From NCBI RefSeq assembly GCF_902459745.1, contig NZ_CABPSJ010000004.1, positions 434,001-498,000 of the forward strand: a stretch of 64,000 nucleotides of DNA. Direction: 5' to 3'. This DNA is from Pandoraea communis (GTDB taxonomy: Bacteria; Pseudomonadota; Gammaproteobacteria; Burkholderiales; Burkholderiaceae). The position numbers were made by a program, and so were the translations under genes. Positions 55 to 6,397 of this stretch are shown here, piece after piece (position 1 is the stretch's first letter; the number at the start of each line of letters is the position of its first letter). The notes beneath the pieces are model-generated. The model worked only from the letters and a program-made list of their open reading frames with translations, was not told the DNA's origin and did no database searches.

Positions 55-966
55 ATGAACGAGAACGATCTTGAACTGCAGCTTAACGAAGACCAGATTC
101 GCCATATTCAGGCGATGACCGGACAACGTATCGGGGCGATTCGAGTGGTGTCGAATTTCCCGGGGCTTCAAGGGATACAGGGTGTGCAGGGCGTGCAAGG
201 TGCACAGGGTATGCAAGGTGCGCAAGGCTTGCAGGGAGTCCAGGGGGTGCAAGGCCCGCAAGGTATGCAGGGTATTCAGGGTGTGCAAGGGCCGCAGGGT
301 TATCCGAACGCTCAAGGCATGCAAGGCCCGCAAGGCATGCAGGGTGTTCAGGGCATGCAAGGGCCGCAGGGATATCAGCACGCTCAAGGTGTGCAAGGCC
401 CGCAAGGCATGCAGGGTGTTCAGGGCATGCAAGGGCCGCAGGGTTATCAGCACGCTCAAGGCGTGCAAGGCCCGCAAGGCATGCAGGGTGTTCAGGGCAT
501 GCAAGGGCCGCAGGGTTATCAGCACGCTCAAGGTGTGCAAGGTCCGCAAGGCATGCAGGGTCCGCAGGGATATCAATACGCGCAAGGCGTGCAAGGCCCG
601 CAAGGTATGCAGGGTCCGCAGGGTTATCAGCACGCTCAAGGTGTGCAAGGTCCGCAAGGTATGCAGGGTCCGCAGGGATATCAATACGCGCAAGGCGTGC
701 AAGGCCCGCAAGGTATGCAGGGTCCGCAGGGTTATCAGCACGCTCAAGGTGTGCAAGGTCCGCAAGGTATGCAGGGTCCGCAGGGATATCAATACGCACA
801 AGGCGTGCAAGGTCCGCAAGGTATGCAGGGTCCGCAGGGATATCAACACGCCCAAGGTGTGCAAGGCCCGCAAGGCATGCAAGGCGCTCAGGGCGTGCAA
901 GGACCGCAGGGTGTTCAGGGTTCGGAACAGGTTCAAGGGATTCAAGGCGCCCAAGGGCTGCATTGA
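55..966 (+). CDS. Collagen-like Gly-X-Gln repeat protein, candidate modified-peptide precursor
   Basis: This gene encodes 303 residues with no signal peptide or membrane segment. A ribosome site (AGGAG) lies just before the ATG. Residues 1 to about 36 form a leader-like, charged, probably helical start containing [16 protein letters not shown]. The rest is nearly all Gly-X-Gln triplets with X = Val, Pro, Met, Ala, Ile or Leu. Ten aromatic cassettes break the triplet rule where a Gly is replaced: one YPNAQ, six YQHAQ and three YQYAQ. Their Tyr codons start at 301, 373, 445, 517, 571, 625, 679, 733, 787 and 841. Collagen-like repeat proteins exist in bacteria, but a leader-plus-repeat layout next to a radical SAM enzyme, a PP-loop ATPase and an oxygenase points to a post-translationally modified substrate. 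A plain structural collagen-like protein is the main alternative. Confidence 0.85.
301..855 (+). repeat. Tandem coding repeats of 72 bp and then 54 bp (108-bp higher-order unit)
   Basis: The Tyr codon of each aromatic cassette marks the unit. Four starts at 301, 373, 445 and 517 are 72 bp apart. The six that follow (571 to 841) are 54 bp apart. In the second block YQYAQ and YQHAQ units alternate, so a 108-bp pair recurs at 571, 679 and 787, with synonymous differences (for example GCG or GCA, GAT-type wobble changes) confined to a few bases. This looks like growth of the gene by unequal crossing over or slippage of a two-unit block. Copy number probably varies between strains. Confidence 0.9.
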
Positions 967-1036
967 TCGCAATGCCGATGTCTACGGCACGGGAGTGCGC
1001 AGAGGGCTTGCGCTCTCGTGTTCGTTGACAAACTGG

Positions 1037-1065
1037 GCGGCTCGGCAGCCGATTCGCCGAGCCGC
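1037..1065 (+). terminator. Perfect 10-bp hairpin after the repeat gene (attenuator or partial terminator)
   Basis: GCGGCTCGGC at 1037-1046 pairs perfectly with GCCGAGCCGC at 1056-1065 across a 9-nt loop. No T-run follows, so it is not a classic Rho-independent terminator. It sits between the abundant-looking repeat protein and the enzyme genes. It could stabilise the 3' end of the first message or reduce read-through, giving more substrate than enzyme. That role is inferred. Confidence 0.55.
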
Positions 1066-1115
1066 GAATCCCTGATGAGATATCGCTTTCGATAGCTCAC
1101 ATTGGAGTTGCGATC

Positions 1116-2111
1116 ATGTCGTCAACCCTCATGAATTTGTCGGCGGAACAACGTGCGAAGTTGTTCGATACCACTGGCGCGCCGTTGCGCAGACTTCGTG
1201 TCGACGCCGTCAGCGGCACTGCGCAGGCGATCGATCGCTACTGTCAGCGGTGTTTGCTCACAGAGGACTTACCCGGCGTGCATATCGCACCGGACGGCAT
1301 CTGCGATGCCTGTCATACCTTCGCTGCGGAATCCGCGCGCGGCGATTACACGCAGCGCAAACTTCTCGATGTGGTGGCCGCGTGCCGGGGCACGGGAACA
1401 CCGGATTGCGTGCTGGCATTCTCGGGAGGAAAGGACAGTGCCCTCACGTTGCTGCTCGCCGTCAAGGAGTTGGGCCTGCATCCCGTCGCCGTGCTCGTCG
1501 ACAACGGGTTCATTCCCGATGAAGTCAAGGACAACGCGTCATCGTTCTGTGCGCGCTTCGGTGTGTCGCTGGTGATCGAAAAGATCGATATTCGCAGGAT
1601 TGCCCGCGAGTCTCTGCAATCGGCCTCGGGGCGTATTCCCTGCTCATCGTGCATCAGCGGCGTCTTTGCCGCGATGGCGAAGACCTGCCGGGCACTCAAT
1701 CTTCGTTTCATCCTCAGTGGTCATCGGTTTCCGCCGCTTGCCTATCCCGTGAGCGGCTTTACGAAGCGTGAAGCGGACAACGGCTTCATCTGCGCCTCGC
1801 CGCTTCTGGCCAGACAGCTCACCGAGGCAGAGCAAATGCAATGGATTCGAGATGCGGGCTGGAAGCCCGTGTCAATCGCCGGCAACACATCGAATTGCAA
1901 ACTGATCGGTGTCGTGGAGCAGCATCTCTACGACGTACAGGGTTTCAATCCGCATATCTATGAGGTCTCGAAGGAAATTCGAGCCGGCTTCTACGATCGC
2001 CGGGCGGGTTTCGAAAAAGTGGATCGTCCGGAGATCACTCCGGAACATCAGCAGTGGGTTCTCGACCGGATGCAGCCCGATACCCCAGAGGTCTCTGATA
2101 AACCAGAGTGA
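1116..2111 (+). CDS. PP-loop ATPase, N-acetyl sugar amidotransferase/TtcA-like fold
   Basis: The protein has 331 residues. It carries two Cys-X2-Cys pairs near the N-terminus (C43/C46 and C63/C66), a PP-loop SGGKDS at 103-108 and a further C176-S-S-C179. The start region (CQRCLL...DGICDAC) resembles the N-acetyl sugar amidotransferase family (PseA/WbpG type). The PP-loop plus an internal Cys-X2-Cys also recalls tRNA thiolases such as TtcA. Family members adenylate a carbonyl or amide using ATP and then insert ammonia or sulfur. No surface-sugar genes lie nearby, so action on the neighbouring repeat protein is plausible but inferred. The stop overlaps the next gene's GTG by 4 bp. The start is supported by GGAG 8 nt upstream. 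Confidence 0.75.
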   Translation: MSSTLMNLSAEQRAKLFDTTGAPLRRLRVDAVSGTAQAIDRYCQRCLLTEDLPGVHIAPDGICDACHTFAAESARGDYTQRKLLDVVAACRGTGTPDCVLAFSGGKDSALTLLLAVKELGLHPVAVLVDNGFIPDEVKDNASSFCARFGVSLVIEKIDIRRIARESLQSASGRIPCSSCISGVFAAMAKTCRALNLRFILSGHRFPPLAYPVSGFTKREADNGFICASPLLARQLTEAEQMQWIRDAGWKPVSIAGNTSNCKLIGVVEQHLYDVQGFNPHIYEVSKEIRAGFYDRRAGFEKVDRPEITPEHQQWVLDRMQPDTPEVSDKPE

Positions 2112-2674
2112 GTCATATGCACGATTCCATCATCGTTACCGACAACTTCTACCGCGACCCGGACGATGTCCGAACGTTTGCACTGGATCAGGCGTTCACG
2201 GTAAAAGGAAATTATCCCGGCGCCCGCACGGGGCCGTTCCTGCACGACGGCGTGATGGACGCTATCCAGAATATCGTCAAGTCGCCGATCACGTATTGGC
2301 CGCCGGACACCTACAACGGCGCGTTTCAATACAGCCTCAAGCAGGACGTTACGTGGGTGCACGCGGATCACACCACTGTGTGGTCCGGCGTTGTCTACCT
2401 TACGCCGGACGCACCCCCTCAGGCGGGGACGGCATTCTTCCAGCATAACGAAACCGGTTTCGACCTCTATCCCGACGATGAGCGGCAACGCGCGTCTTGC
2501 GACGCCGACGCCACCGCCTGGGAGCGCTGGACAATGACCGACCGGATCGCAAATCGTTTCAACCGCCTGATCCTGTTCCGAGGCCGTCGCTTTCACGCGA
2601 GTCAGGGACACTTCGGCGACAGCAAAGAGAACGGTCGTTTGTTCCAGACATTCTTTTTCAACACGCAATGCTAA
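2108..2674 (+). CDS. 2-oxoglutarate/Fe(II) oxygenase-like protein (DUF6445 type)
   Basis: The protein has 188 residues from a GTG that overlaps the previous stop by 4 bp. An ATG at 2117 is an equally possible start. Metal-binding residues of a double-stranded beta-helix oxygenase can be placed: H85-A-D87 (HXD), H163 in RFHAS, and R177 in GRLFQ for the 2-oxoglutarate carboxylate. Such enzymes hydroxylate side chains using O2 and 2-oxoglutarate, and the layout recalls prolyl hydroxylases. Its place between the PP-loop gene and the radical SAM gene suggests it hydroxylates the collagen-like repeats (Pro, Gln, His or Tyr). Bacterial collagen-like proteins are known prolyl-hydroxylase substrates, but the residue and substrate here are inferred. 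Confidence 0.72.
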   Translation: MSHMHDSIIVTDNFYRDPDDVRTFALDQAFTVKGNYPGARTGPFLHDGVMDAIQNIVKSPITYWPPDTYNGAFQYSLKQDVTWVHADHTTVWSGVVYLTPDAPPQAGTAFFQHNETGFDLYPDDERQRASCDADATAWERWTMTDRIANRFNRLILFRGRRFHASQGHFGDSKENGRLFQTFFFNTQC

Positions 2675-2706
2675 TGCGTATCTTCTTACCTGAAGGAGGC
2701 AATGAG

Positions 2707-3069
2707 ATGGCAGCTTCGGAACTGTTTTTCCCAGTGGGCTCGCTCGGTCTGAGCAAGGAGCAATCGGCGAAGATCAAGACGGCTTTCGGACATGAGGTCG
2801 ATAGCGTGCCGCTGTATCGCGTGGTGCCGGTGTCATCCGACGATCGCTATGTGCCGTTGGCCGACGTGCCGGGATTGCCGGGCATTCTCGTGCACTACGG
2901 CGATGCGGCGGCATCGGCCGGCGCCAATATCATTGCTTCGGTGATTTCGGATATGGCACGGGGAACCGACGACTCGGCGGTATTCGCCGCGCATACGAAG
3001 CTGATGGCGCCGCATTCGGACGAGAGTGCCGCCAAGGCGCGCGCGCCGGCGGCTGGCAAAGCGAAGTGA
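2707..3069 (+). CDS. Unknown 120-residue protein with a leader-like motif shared with the repeat protein
   Basis: I do not recognise this family. The ATG at 2707 follows a strong ribosome site (GGAGG, 8 nt upstream), which rules out the longer in-frame starts. Residues 15-40 contain LSKEQSAKIKTAFG followed by a RVV motif. The repeat protein's N-terminus has [14 protein letters not shown] followed by RVV, so the pattern L-x3-Q-x3-I-x4-G then RVV is shared. The middle is rich in Gly, Ala and Ser with a hydrophobic patch. The tail is Ala/Lys-rich and probably disordered. It may be a second substrate, a chaperone, or a binding partner that mimics the leader. It has no signal peptide. Confidence 0.7.
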   Translation: MAASELFFPVGSLGLSKEQSAKIKTAFGHEVDSVPLYRVVPVSSDDRYVPLADVPGLPGILVHYGDAAASAGANIIASVISDMARGTDDSAVFAAHTKLMAPHSDESAAKARAPAAGKAK

Positions 3070-3085
3070 ATTGACATTCGCCTCG

Positions 3086-4246
3086 ATGACTACGCGCAGT
3101 GGCAAGGGGAGCGATGTCGCGTCAGGCAGTGCCGGCGATCTTCTGGTGATGGTCAAGGTCGCCGAGCGCTGCAACATCGACTGCGACTATTGCTACATGT
3201 ATCAGGGTGTCGATCAGGGATGGCGGCAGCGCCCCAAGTTCCTGAGCGAGCCTCATCTCGATCAGTTGGTCGAACGTCTGACCGAGCACCGCCACGCGTT
3301 TCCGTCGGCACGAATGACGTTGGAGATCCACGGAGGAGAACCGCTGTTGCTCGGCAAACGCCGCACGGCCCGCTTCTTCGAACATCTGCGGCATCGTTTG
3401 AGCGAAGCGGAGTTGGCCATCGTGACGCAAAGCAACGGTGTGTTGATAGACACGTCATGGCTGGACTTGTATGCCGAGTTCGGTGCGACGCTCGGCATCA
3501 GTTGCGATGGCCCGCCTGCGCTGCATGATCGGCATCGATACGATTTCGAGAAGCAAGGAACCGGGGCTCGCGTCGAGCAGGCGATTCGTCTATGCCTGTC
3601 CTACCCGCAATCGCGGCGAGTGTTCAACGGCGTGCTGGCGGTCATCGACCCTAACAACGATCCGGTGCGAATTCTCGACTACTTCCGCGCATTGGGGTTG
3701 AGCGACGTCGACTTTCTGTTACCTGATGCCAACTTTGCCGCACCTCCCCGACACATTCAGGCGTATACGCACGCGCGTTTGCTGGCTTTCCTGTGTCGAG
3801 GGTTCGATGCGTGGCTTGCCATCGACGACCCTGCCTTTCACGTGCGCATCTTTGAAACGTTCATTCGGGGCGTGTTGGGCCGTCGCTCCGAACTCGACGC
3901 ATTTGGTGGCGCATTGGCACCGATTACGGTGGTCGAGAGCGATGGCAGCTATCGGCTGCTGGACGTACTTTCCATCTGCAAGACCGATGCGAGTTACACG
4001 GGACTCGGTCTCGAGAAGCATAAGCTCCAGAACTTCGTCGACCTCGCGCGCGCCCGCTATCCGGAAGTCCACGCGGCGTGTCGTGAATGTGAGGCGTTTG
4101 TCGCATGCGGCGGCGGCTACGTCGCCCATCGCTTCGACGGAGAGAGCTACGACAATCCCAGCTTCTATTGCAGCGCGTTGGTCGGCTTCTATCGGCATGT
4201 CCGAGCGCACGTGAATCGCCTGTCGATCGCTACGCCCGTCAATTAA
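3086..4246 (+). CDS. Radical SAM/SPASM peptide maturase, FxsB/GrrM/XyeB type
   Basis: The protein has 386 residues from the ATG. The cluster motif C29-x3-C33-x2-C36 (CNIDCDYC) is followed by MYQGVDQGWRQRP, a signature of the FxsB/XyeB/GrrM maturases. HGGEPLL and GISCDG strands follow. The C-terminal SPASM-like domain includes CRECEAFVACGGGYVAHRF, again FxsB-like. These enzymes use S-adenosylmethionine and iron-sulfur clusters to join an aromatic residue to the beta carbon two positions later, giving three-residue cyclophanes. The adjacent repeat protein offers matching Y-Q-H, Y-Q-Y, H-A-Q and Y-A-Q triads. A TTG at 3071 is an alternative start, since the ATG lacks a good ribosome site. Confidence 0.88.
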   Translation: MTTRSGKGSDVASGSAGDLLVMVKVAERCNIDCDYCYMYQGVDQGWRQRPKFLSEPHLDQLVERLTEHRHAFPSARMTLEIHGGEPLLLGKRRTARFFEHLRHRLSEAELAIVTQSNGVLIDTSWLDLYAEFGATLGISCDGPPALHDRHRYDFEKQGTGARVEQAIRLCLSYPQSRRVFNGVLAVIDPNNDPVRILDYFRALGLSDVDFLLPDANFAAPPRHIQAYTHARLLAFLCRGFDAWLAIDDPAFHVRIFETFIRGVLGRRSELDAFGGALAPITVVESDGSYRLLDVLSICKTDASYTGLGLEKHKLQNFVDLARARYPEVHAACRECEAFVACGGGYVAHRFDGESYDNPSFYCSALVGFYRHVRAHVNRLSIATPVN

Positions 4247-4353: not shown

Positions 4354-5409
4354 TCAACTTCCCTGACGTGCTGCCATCTGCGGCACGAACAGATCGCTCC
4401 ACTTCGCCGGACGCGTCTTGATCGTGCCCGCGCGGCCCATGAACTCGACGTACTGCATCAGGCCATTGGGCGTTGTGGTGAATTGCAGGCCCGGGTCAGC
4501 GAGCATCTGCTCGATTTCGGCTTGCGGCAGATTCATCTTCGACACACGCAGGAACGTCTTCGCTGCACCCACACGATCCTTCGCGATGTAGGCGGCGGCC
4601 TCTTCCTGCGCGTCCAGAATCGCCTGCACCAGCTTCGGATTCTGCACGGTGAATTGCTTTGGCGCGAACACGACATCGATGGTGATGTTGCCGAGCACGT
4701 CCGTCGAATTCAGCACGCGCTTGATGCGCGGGTCCTTCAGTTCCTGATACGAGAACGGCGGTGAGGTGAAGTGCGCGGTAATCTCCGTCTTGCCCGAGAG
4801 CAGCGCGCTCAATGCTTCCGGATGGCTCAGGCTGACCGTCTGCGGATCGAGCTTCGCGTAGTTCTCGATGCCGAACGTCTTTGCCACGGCCATTTGCAGC
4901 AACACGGCGGAGAGCGACGTCTTGATGCCTGGAATCGCGATCTTGTCCTTCGGCGTGAAGTCCTTGAGCGACTTGATGTTCGGGTTGTTCGTATTGAGCC
5001 AGAGCGGCCCGGTCGACAGCGCTGACAGACCGATCACTTCCGAGCGCGGAATGCCGTGCGCCTTCGACCACAGCGTGACGAAGCCCGGCGCGCCCGTGCC
5101 CGCGACATCGAGATTGCCTGCGAGCATTGCGTCGTTGATGACGTTGCCGCCGTCGAGAATGGTCCATGTGGTCTTCACGTCGCCTAGCCCCAGCGCTTTG
5201 GCGTGCTTCTCGACGAGTTGCTGGTCGCGCATGACCATCAGCGGCAGATAGAGAATGCCGTAGCCATGCGAGAGGCGCACGGTGCTGGCTTCGGCATGTG
5301 CGGCGTTGCCGAGCGTGGAGAGGGCCGTCGTCGCGGCGAGCGTCAGTGCGCTTGCCCAGCGGGCAAACCGGGCAAGACGTGTGGAAGGGGTGGAATGGCG
5401 TCGGTTCAT
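4354..5409 (-). CDS. ABC importer periplasmic binding protein (SsuA/TauA/NMT1 type)
   Basis: The protein has 351 residues. It has a long signal peptide: basic start, hydrophobic stretch at about 17-34, and an AHA-E cleavage site near residue 39. The mature part starts VRLSHGYG and includes LDGGNVINDAMLAGNLDVAGTGAPG, typical of the NMT1/SsuA-like fold that binds sulfonates, nitrate, taurine or thiamine precursors. It is followed on the minus strand by the permease-side genes in the order ATPase, permease, binding protein. No monooxygenase (ssuD, tauD) is nearby, so the substrate cannot be named. A sulfonate-like or small organic anion is a reasonable guess. Confidence 0.8.
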   Translation of the reverse strand: MNRRHSTPSTRLARFARWASALTLAATTALSTLGNAAHAEASTVRLSHGYGILYLPLMVMRDQQLVEKHAKALGLGDVKTTWTILDGGNVINDAMLAGNLDVAGTGAPGFVTLWSKAHGIPRSEVIGLSALSTGPLWLNTNNPNIKSLKDFTPKDKIAIPGIKTSLSAVLLQMAVAKTFGIENYAKLDPQTVSLSHPEALSALLSGKTEITAHFTSPPFSYQELKDPRIKRVLNSTDVLGNITIDVVFAPKQFTVQNPKLVQAILDAQEEAAAYIAKDRVGAAKTFLRVSKMNLPQAEIEQMLADPGLQFTTTPNGLMQYVEFMGRAGTIKTRPAKWSDLFVPQMAARQGS

Positions 5410-5488
5410 GGTGTTGTCGTCTCCGGATAGTTCGAATTATTCATGCCCCCGAAGGGGCGTCAATCAGACACGGCCGCAAAGTGGCAGA

Positions 5489-6397
5489 TCAATGCTGCAT
5501 GCCCCAGCGATGCAGTGTGCGTTTCTCGATGCGGGCGAACAGCAGGTTCTCGACCGCGAGCCCGATCAGGATCACGAAGAACAGCCCGGCGAAGACGTTG
5601 GCCGTCTCCAGCGAATTGCGGTTCTCGAAGATGTACCAGCCGAGGCCGCCCGAGCCCGAGGACACACCGAACACGAGTTCTGCGGCAATCAACGTGCGCC
5701 ACGCAAACGCCCAGCCCACCTTCAGCCCGGTGAGAATGCTCGGGAAGGCGGCCGGAATGAGCACATGCCGCACCAGCGCGAAACGCTTGAGTCCGTAGTT
5801 CTGACCGATCATGCGCAGCGTTTTCGATACGCCGCGAAAGCCGCTGTGCGTGTTCAGTGCCACGGCCCACAGCACCGAGTGCACGAGCACGAAGATCACG
5901 CTGCCGTTGCCGAGCCCGAACCAGATCAGTGCGAGCGGCAGCAGCGCGATGGCCGGCAGCGGATTGAACATGGCGGTGAGCGTCTCGAGCAGGTCGTTGC
6001 CGATCTTGGAACTGATGGCGACGGTGGTGAGCACGGCGGCAAGCGCAATGCCGATGCCGTAGCCGACGAGCAGTGTCTTGAGCGAGATCGCGGCGCGCAA
6101 CAGCAGCACGCCGCTCGTCAGACCGCTCGCGAACGCGCCGAGGGTGTCGGTGAAGCTCGGAAAGAGCAGTGCGTTGTCGAGCCAGCGGCCGTAGATTTCC
6201 CAGATGATGGCGAGCACGCACAGGATCACGGTCTTGCGCAGCCAGCTCAGGCGGTAGAGGGTCTCGAAGGTAGAGAGCGGGCGCTGAATCGAGGACAACT
6301 CGGCCGGCGTCGGCTCCAGCACGATTTCGGGCCGGTACACCGGTTCGATGGGCGCTTGCGCGGACGACGTGGGGTGTTGCGAGGCGATGGCGTTCAT
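5489..6397 (-). CDS. ABC importer permease (SsuC/TauC type)
   Basis: The protein has 302 residues from the ATG at 6397, preceded by GAGGAG. About 60 N-terminal residues are soluble. Then come six or so membrane segments and the cytoplasmic loop RHVLIPAAFPSILTGLKVGW, which is the EAA-type motif that docks on the ATPase. It sits 11 bp after the ATPase gene and upstream of the binding-protein gene in the same transcript. This is the inner-membrane channel of the SsuABC/TauABC-like importer. A longer reading upstream would run into the ATPase gene and has no ribosome site. Confidence 0.82.
   Translation of the reverse strand: MNAIASQHPTSSAQAPIEPVYRPEIVLEPTPAELSSIQRPLSTFETLYRLSWLRKTVILCVLAIIWEIYGRWLDNALLFPSFTDTLGAFASGLTSGVLLLRAAISLKTLLVGYGIGIALAAVLTTVAISSKIGNDLLETLTAMFNPLPAIALLPLALIWFGLGNGSVIFVLVHSVLWAVALNTHSGFRGVSKTLRMIGQNYGLKRFALVRHVLIPAAFPSILTGLKVGWAFAWRTLIAAELVFGVSSGSGGLGWYIFENRNSLETANVFAGLFFVILIGLAVENLLFARIEKRTLHRWGMQH

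Follow-up and report, generated by a model that had tools for sequence, protein, structure and literature searches.

Which protein does a radical S-adenosylmethionine (SAM) enzyme modify when it is encoded beside a collagen-like repeat protein? The question is raised by a five-gene cluster at the start of a 64,000-nucleotide stretch of Pandoraea communis DNA (hereafter the window), in which a leader-bearing (Gly-X-Gln)n repeat protein (COL), a PP-loop protein (PPL), a DUF6445 protein (DUF), a 120-residue protein (P120), and a radical SAM/SPASM enzyme (RSAM) follow one another in this order, all on the + strand. The first-pass annotation of the window had described a leader-plus-repeat protein with ten aromatic cassettes followed by four genes on one strand, and both the coordinates and the exact cassette count agreed with our analysis. 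It had proposed a pathway like those of ribosomally synthesized and post-translationally modified peptides (RiPPs), with crosslinks in the cassettes of COL. We propose an operon whose enzymes are guided by leader segments to two protein substrates, COL and P120, and we infer every reaction and every pairing of enzyme with substrate within it; taken as a whole, this scheme is a serious possibility that falls a little short of an even chance. The cluster is very probably a true modification operon, and P120, not the cassettes, appears from sequence comparison to be the likelier target of RSAM, the cassette crosslink being the weaker of the two assignments.

The five genes were retained together across species and genera. 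Of 32 Pandoraea genomes, 10 have RSAM adjoining the other four genes (the G026 assembly among them divides COL between two contigs), and all five genes recurred in the same order in Roseateles terrae, so that the radical SAM gene beside a Gly-X-Gln protein, the co-occurrence that the first-pass annotation had suggested looking for, was indeed found. PPL was present in 11 of the 32 genomes, and the COL leader and P120 in those same 11 (the P120 search listing covered 31 of the 32); the eleventh genome, P. terrae, carries COL-PPL-DUF-P120 without RSAM. Identity of the Roseateles proteins to those of the window was 36% for P120, 54% for PPL, 57% for RSAM, and 66% for DUF. A PPL scan of one genome from each of 84,980 species, which depends on exact matches to short peptides and therefore overlooks remote homologues, yielded 10 loci: eight in Pandoraea, one in Paraburkholderia ribeironis, and one in R. 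terrae. The Paraburkholderia locus, a 5.3-kb contig (L042), holds PPL, DUF, P120, and an RSAM gene broken across two reading frames; transposase-like open reading frames (ORFs; named by reading) flank this decayed cluster, and the second CxxC cysteine of its PPL is substituted. P120 was found in 11 of 398 Burkholderiaceae genomes (25 genera sampled), every one of them Pandoraea, and it had no match at E <= 0.01 among 72,556 plasmids. Each genome contributed only its first few candidates to the scoring in these larger scans, in which PPL was found at E <= 1e-25 in one of 399 genomes of the order, the window's own, and RSAM in 2 of 369 genomes of the class (E <= 1e-50) and 4 of 398 of the phylum (E <= 1e-45), its own genome included each time. 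The five-gene block exceeds a chance association.

Comparison with genome G003, P. terrigena, and P. terrae gave dN/dS values of 0.04 to 0.34 for the four non-repeat genes, indicating purifying selection, with 0.15 to 0.34 for P120 versus 0.04 to 0.11 for the enzymes; dS exceeded 1 in most comparisons with P. terrigena and P. terrae, which makes these ratios rough, and P. terrae contributes no RSAM. Codons 1 to 40 of COL showed zero amino acid changes against G003.

A second link among the genes is the likeness of the N termini of the COL leader, PPL (MNLSAEQRAKLFDTTGAPLRRLRV), and P120 (LGLSKEQSAKIKTAFGHEVDSV). Ungapped profiles were built from five diverse sequences per protein, and the observed score was reached by 0 of 3000 column shuffles for COL-PPL, 0 of 3000 for COL-P120, and 1 of 3000 for PPL-P120; the compared segments were picked after the likeness had been noticed, and the counts are somewhat favourable. 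When the COL leader profile was slid over the other proteins of the cluster, it peaked at 19.8 in PPL and 18.4 in P120, reached at most 7.6 in RSAM, and stayed below zero in DUF. The relationship was visible in profiles only, pairwise BLASTP of the leaders giving nothing for COL and an E value of 0.19 for P120-PPL. A search for further leader-bearing proteins in Pandoraea returned, outside the 11 COLs, weak matches only (best E 0.0086; one of E 0.37 lies within the P. terrae P120). Because COL and P120 have a related leader, both are candidate substrates; the leader-like segment on PPL is unusual. The RiPP-like pathway with COL as a substrate thereby held up, the leaders being related and the leader, PPL, and P120 occurring in the same 11 genomes; it is likely that one or more of the enzymes modify COL.

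RSAM exceeded the cut-off of the Pfam Radical_SAM model (43.1 bits, cut-off 29.5). Its best NCBIfam models were YhhB (NF041707; 304.9 bits, cut-off 445) and FxsB (TIGR04269; 289.1 bits, cut-off 370), and a true member of either family was rejected because both curated cut-offs were missed; the first-pass annotation had placed it with FxsB/GrrM-type enzymes, and we place it in the YhhB/FxsB group. The CxxxCxxC motif (Cys29, Cys33, and Cys36) and the SPASM-type Cys298, Cys332, Cys335, Cys341, and Cys362 were invariant in 11 of 11 rows, a comparison that leaves out the broken Paraburkholderia gene. The closest solved relative was ChlB (PDB 9gm3, 1.7e-63). In a phylogenetic tree RSAM clustered with sequences from Polymorphobacter and Rhodococcus (support 98/97); in a second tree, with three rows added and one dropped, the fork had support 80/98 and also took in G1400 on a long branch, and both trees flagged long branches, Polymorphobacter included. 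A defence function was considered and rejected: the matches of RSAM to two viperin models (best 2.6e-12) span residues 22 to 142, a region that we take to be the core common to radical SAM enzymes, and the search gave no match for COL, PPL, DUF, or P120.

The small ORFs upstream of related radical SAM genes suggest what such enzymes act on. They were read at 18 loci, comprising 14 plasmid loci drawn from the best 20 of the 30 matches listed out of 256 records, and the loci L052, L084, L085, and L086. Five YhhB loci had an upstream ORF with YDR/HHR/HNR or YDR/HNR/HNR, the Polymorphobacter locus had a small upstream ORF 36 bases from the radical SAM gene with HAK, FSK, and HTK, and the Rhodococcus locus had YDK and HLR in a 65-residue ORF whose end is some 214 bases from the gene. 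At L084 (1045-1308) and L085 (1125-1397, turned), small Gly-rich ORFs contain FRR/FVR/FAK/FIR cassettes in repeats and stop roughly 120 and 14 bases, respectively, short of the radical SAM frame; these are two genomes of one genus in the same phylum as the window. The Gloeobacter locus had an upstream FPR, and Calothrix and L086 had one instance each (FSR and FAK), of doubtful weight. YhhB is reported to join Tyr and His to Arg (PMC11002830). On the plasmid of Polymorphobacter (L047), two related-looking small ORFs, FHAKGSFSKSEHTK (3633-3935, +) and AHGKGAFSKMGFTK (5294-5545, -), flank the single radical SAM gene near integrases.

P120 fits this pattern. It ends 16 bases before RSAM, the place that precursors occupy in YhhB loci, and it had no match in Pfam or NCBIfam. 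Its H-x-K triplet (His-[Thr/Ser]-Lys, His96 and Lys98) was invariant in 13 of 13 rows. AlphaFold gave moderate confidence to residues 1 to 63 and a predicted local distance difference test (pLDDT) score of about 30 to residues 67 to 120, a predicted pattern as expected for a leader domain with a flexible tail. RSAM would form a three-residue cyclophane on P120 through a bond between the His96 imidazole and the Lys98 beta carbon, a reaction modelled on the YhhB-type Tyr/His-x-Arg linkage. The comparison of P120 with precursors at related loci tips the balance slightly in favour of RSAM acting on P120. The first-pass annotation had overlooked that the cassettes are inconstant and that P120 is more deserving of attention.

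In the window COL, the register of the ten cassettes is mostly Gly-Tyr-Gln/His-Ala-Gln or Gly-Tyr-Gln/Tyr-Ala-Gln, which keeps the triplet rhythm intact and swaps the Gly of the next triplet for His, Tyr, or Asn. It is rather unlikely that RSAM crosslinks Tyr-Gln-His/Tyr or His/Tyr-Ala-Gln in these cassettes, whether COL is its sole substrate or P120 is one too. Such crosslinking would agree with the relatedness of the COL and P120 leaders, with the presence of at least one YQH, YQY, or HQY in nine of nine complete Pandoraea COLs beside RSAM and of none in the RSAM-less P. terrae, and with the best PDB match of RSAM, ChlB, which the title of one paper calls a multiple cyclophane synthase. A further parallel is the Rhizobium lusitanum plasmid locus (L055), where a 380-residue protein at 1224-2366 with seven EMHDQ[T/N]HSE repeats, and thus Gln at +2 in many copies, lies 77 bases before a related radical SAM gene that is followed by an HEXXH-type gene; this protein, which had no NCBIfam match, is a candidate long repeat precursor by its sequence. 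A long repeat protein beside the radical SAM gene was found at this one of the 18 loci, a mixed outcome for the test that the first-pass annotation had set for its proposal.

Against this stands the Roseateles locus, which keeps RSAM although its COL has no cassettes, so that the enzyme is retained where cassettes are absent; the six aromatic residues of the Roseateles repeat (three Phe and three His) each have Gly at +2. Glycine has no beta carbon. Cassette number was 2 to 11 in the nine complete Pandoraea COLs with RSAM, or 1 to 11 if the GHLNGQG match found in three species is excluded, falling to one in P. eparura, and it was zero in P. terrae and Roseateles. The likeness of the P. terrae COL to that of Roseateles suggests that the cassettes arose later, within Pandoraea, and are not what RSAM was kept for. 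No aromatic residue with Lys or Arg at +2 was found in the repeat part (from residue 37) of the 11 complete COLs, in contrast to P120 and to the upstream peptides of the two nearest RSAM relatives in the tree; the COL leader of P. terrae contains one His-Ile-Arg. The cassettes fitted an aromatic-x-X crosslink motif only loosely and were not constant across COLs, and crosslinking at them is not supported in the form that the first-pass annotation gave it. What COL keeps from genus to genus is the nearly invariant Gln at the third position, which filled all 66 Gly-flanked triplets of the window COL, 42 of 42 in Roseateles, and 819 of 833 across the 11 complete COLs; this is where we would look first for an action of PPL or DUF.

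P120 might also serve as an adaptor through which COL, or the leader-like segment of PPL, is offered to the enzymes, with COL as the sole substrate. Its predicted strand-helix-strand N-terminal domain, related to the COL leader, and its retention in P. terrae without RSAM would suit such a role. We regard it as improbable, as the best-conserved stretch of P120, H-x-K included, lies in the predicted disordered tail, its place before RSAM is that of the precursor peptides at YhhB loci, and its dN/dS exceeds that of the enzymes.

Several observations weigh against P120 as the RSAM substrate and against the two-substrate scheme in general. The structure predicted for P120 is of poor quality, with a mean pLDDT of 54, and a fold search gave no PDB match at E <= 0.001 (best E 0.76). 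The chance that one of the two invariant aromatic residues of the tail has Lys at +2 is roughly 0.04 by position (our own estimate) and rises if only the conserved 9-mer of P120 is counted. Short aromatic-x-Lys/Arg triplets also occur by chance; they were absent from the nearest small upstream ORFs in Streptomyces (Haa type), Nocardia, and L052, occurred in Spirosoma only near the start of the second upstream ORF, and had in Paraburkholderia PREW-6R a sole instance, HTK, in an ORF about 200 bases off. The R. lusitanum locus offers a long repeat protein with +2 Gln beside a related radical SAM gene. The P. terrae genome has no RSAM orthologue (best 26%) though its P120 retains HTK; 26 codons directly after P120 (L044, 9046-9123) are 54% identical to the RSAM C terminus (E 0.004, 15 kb), a probable remnant that suggests secondary loss of RSAM at an undated time. 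Neither a protease nor a peptide exporter was seen among the window ORFs inside the cluster, and the ABC transporter downstream lies on the other strand and was found only at the cluster of the window's group. The template modelling score of the PPL model against its first fold match was only about 0.55, and the choice of substrate for PPL and DUF is one that we infer.

For PPL, sulfur and nitrogen transfer have to be weighed. Its best NCBIfam model was WbuX (TIGR03573) at 97.8 bits, and a Foldseek search with its model placed a Legionella N-acetyl sugar amidotransferase (8wex) first, followed by TtuA and LarE entries, several of them with iron-sulfur clusters. A WbuX-like, amide-forming enzyme that transfers nitrogen would thus agree with the top sequence and fold matches. 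It is nevertheless unlikely, since the score falls well under the WbuX cut-off of 203.2 bits, Cys176, Cys179, and Cys261 are missing from the one aligned WbuX-like Pandoraea protein, and the CxxC aligns with that of TtcA. TtcA and TtuA bind a [4Fe-4S] cluster on three cysteines and transfer sulfur to an amide-like carbonyl. In PPL, the CxxC lies 73 residues past the PP-loop, compared with 75 in the TtcA of the same genome, and the CxxC columns align; Cys261 lies 82 residues beyond the CxxC, compared with 85, and the third cysteine is offset in the alignment. Cys176 and Cys261 were conserved in 13 of 13 rows and Cys179 in 12, the exception being the decayed Paraburkholderia copy. From the WbuX-like scaffold with a TtcA-like CxxC...C we predict that PPL is a sulfurtransferase with a [4Fe-4S] cluster, for which COL or P120 may be the protein that is thiolated; we prefer this function to amide formation while giving it about an even chance of being right.

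DUF matched DUF6445 (PF20043) with 51.2 bits (cut-off 24) and Pfam 2OG-FeII_Oxy_5 below threshold (14.2 versus 27 bits). The 2-oxoglutarate (2OG)-Fe(II) oxygenases have an HxD...H...R facial triad pattern, and the corresponding His82, Asp84, His160, and Arg174 of DUF, its predicted 2OG-oxygenase pattern, were invariant in 13 of 13 rows. An identity of DUF with YhhC (NF041706) was rejected, as DUF had no NCBIfam match at E <= 0.1, whereas a Vibrio YhhC scored 253.3 bits on this model, and no meaningful pairwise match to YhhC. In the two-substrate scheme, COL would be the multi-site substrate of PPL, of DUF, or of both: PPL would activate an amide oxygen with ATP and replace it by sulfur from its [4Fe-4S] site, with a thioamide at the Gln side chains or the backbone as the product, and DUF would hydroxylate.

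COL could instead be an ordinary collagen-like surface protein standing by chance beside a small RiPP cluster that acts on P120 only. COL matched the Pfam Collagen model (PF01391; 123.3 bits, cut-off 27.2), and collagen-like adhesins have been proposed for the Burkholderia cepacia complex (PMC10224339). However, COL stayed under the cut-offs of all three NCBIfam adhesin models that it matched (Lcl, NF046116: 174.4 bits, cut-off 500), and neither a signal peptide, on reading of the leader, nor an anchor was seen. Together with the leader related to that of P120, the same neighbour in Roseateles, and co-occurrence in 11 of 11 genomes, this makes a chance neighbour very unlikely.

Among known systems, the YhhA-YhhB-YhhC triceptide clusters are alike in the radical SAM group and in a precursor gene immediately upstream with aromatic-x-basic motifs, and the 2OG oxygenase YhhC stands beside one of the related loci (L056). 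They differ in that the window RSAM is below the YhhB cut-off, DUF has no match to YhhC, neither a PP-loop nor a Gly-X-Gln gene came to light at those of the related loci that we read, and P120 is longer, with a leader related to that of COL. The ChlB/ChlH multiple cyclophane systems contain the best solved relative of RSAM and combine a radical SAM with an alpha-ketoglutarate enzyme (PMC12636437). HEXXH genes occurred at the related loci L054, L055, and L061; unlike ChlH, the window oxygenase is a DUF6445 protein not of the HEXXH type and without fusion, and the PP-loop enzyme and collagen-like protein are additional. With the [4Fe-4S] PP-loop sulfurtransferases TtcA, TtuA, and LarE, PPL has in common the PP-loop, a nearly equal distance to the CxxC, and a third cysteine, but it has WbuX-like N-terminal cysteine pairs and a leader-like segment, and its substrate is presumably a peptide. 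The bacterial collagen-like proteins Lcl, Scl, and Bucl resemble COL in having Gly at every third residue, whereas COL has the third-position Gln, a conserved leader, and adjoining modification genes, and no signal peptide or anchor was seen in it.

We rate the cluster as allied to triceptide/cyclophane RiPPs and its combination with a PP-loop enzyme and a collagen-like repeat protein as new. Literature searches found no RiPP pathway in which a radical SAM enzyme is paired with a collagen-like protein as substrate, nor a described pathway with this combination of enzymes and substrate, in agreement with the first-pass annotation. If the two-substrate scheme is true, enzymes of three kinds (triceptide-type radical SAM, iron-sulfur PP-loop, and 2OG-type oxygenase) would use a common leader code on two unlike substrates, one of them a long collagen-like repeat; the reach of RiPP-like machinery would extend from short peptides to protein-sized repeats, and a compact five-gene set would become available for studying multi-site modification and a YcaO-independent thioamide route. 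In the strongest form, the polymer-like Gly-X-Gln protein and the short peptide would bear a common leader code, and PPL, as an iron-sulfur enzyme with that code of its own, would turn many Gln carboxamides or backbone amides of the repeat into thioamides, giving a poly-thioamide protein beside a radical SAM cyclophane peptide; this is a long shot.

Table 1. Positions of the cluster genes and their features in the window
Feature	Position	Strand	Description
COL	55..966	+	303 aa; leader + (Gly-X-Gln)n repeat protein, candidate substrate
COL leader, residues 1-40	55..174	+	almost invariant in most of Pandoraea
COL stretch with ten aromatic cassettes	298..858	+	GYQHAQG x6, GYQYAQG x3, GYPNAQG x1
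PPL	1116..2111	+	331 aa; PP-loop protein, predicted sulfurtransferase; WbuX-like scaffold, TtcA-like CxxC...C
PPL leader-like N-terminal segment, residues 6-29	1131..1202	+	profile comparison
PPL PP-loop SGGKDS, residues 103-108	1422..1439	+	
PPL Cys176-x-x-Cys179	1641..1652	+	alignment with TtcA CxxC
PPL Cys261	1896..1898	+	candidate third iron-sulfur ligand; invariant
DUF	2117..2674	+	185 aa; DUF6445 protein, predicted 2OG-Fe(II)-type oxygenase; His82-x-Asp84, His160, Arg174
P120	2707..3069	+	candidate precursor peptide; N-terminal domain (moderate-confidence prediction) + predicted disordered tail
P120 leader-like segment, residues 13-34	2743..2808	+	profile comparison
P120 best-conserved block FAAH[T/S]KL[M/L]A	2983..3009	+	row comparison
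P120 His96-Thr97-Lys98	2992-3000	+	proposed crosslink site; inside best-conserved block
RSAM	3086..4246	+	386 aa; radical SAM/SPASM enzyme, YhhB/FxsB group
RSAM CxxxCxxC, Cys29, Cys33, Cys36	3170..3193	+	

The positions of the genes and their features are collected in Table 1. The successive intergenic gaps are 149, 5, 32, and 16 bases. The starts of DUF and RSAM were taken as the ATG codons listed there; the ORF list had earlier GTG codons at 2108 and 3026. A terminator-like stem after COL was rejected as a signal, as two such sites occurred in the region with 3.4 expected by chance.

The window starts at base 434001 of its contig, and dnaK, dnaJ, and a pabB-like gene (names by reading) lie 5' of the cluster, with a sulfonate-type ABC transporter (by reading) 3' of it on the opposite strand. 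Among the clusters compared, only that of the window's group had the pabB-like and transporter genes next to it, and the neighbours vary among Pandoraea groups (L014-L023 and L035-L044 versus L001); this variation suggests that the cluster may have moved or been gained repeatedly. The R. terrae RSAM gene has as its neighbour on the opposite strand a gene that reads as a trypsin-like protease (L043, 10239-11177) and is possibly unrelated. Upstream of the window (L001, 2434-5010), Pro-Gly-Val repeats follow one another in a protein of 858 residues, another collagen-like stretch in the genome.

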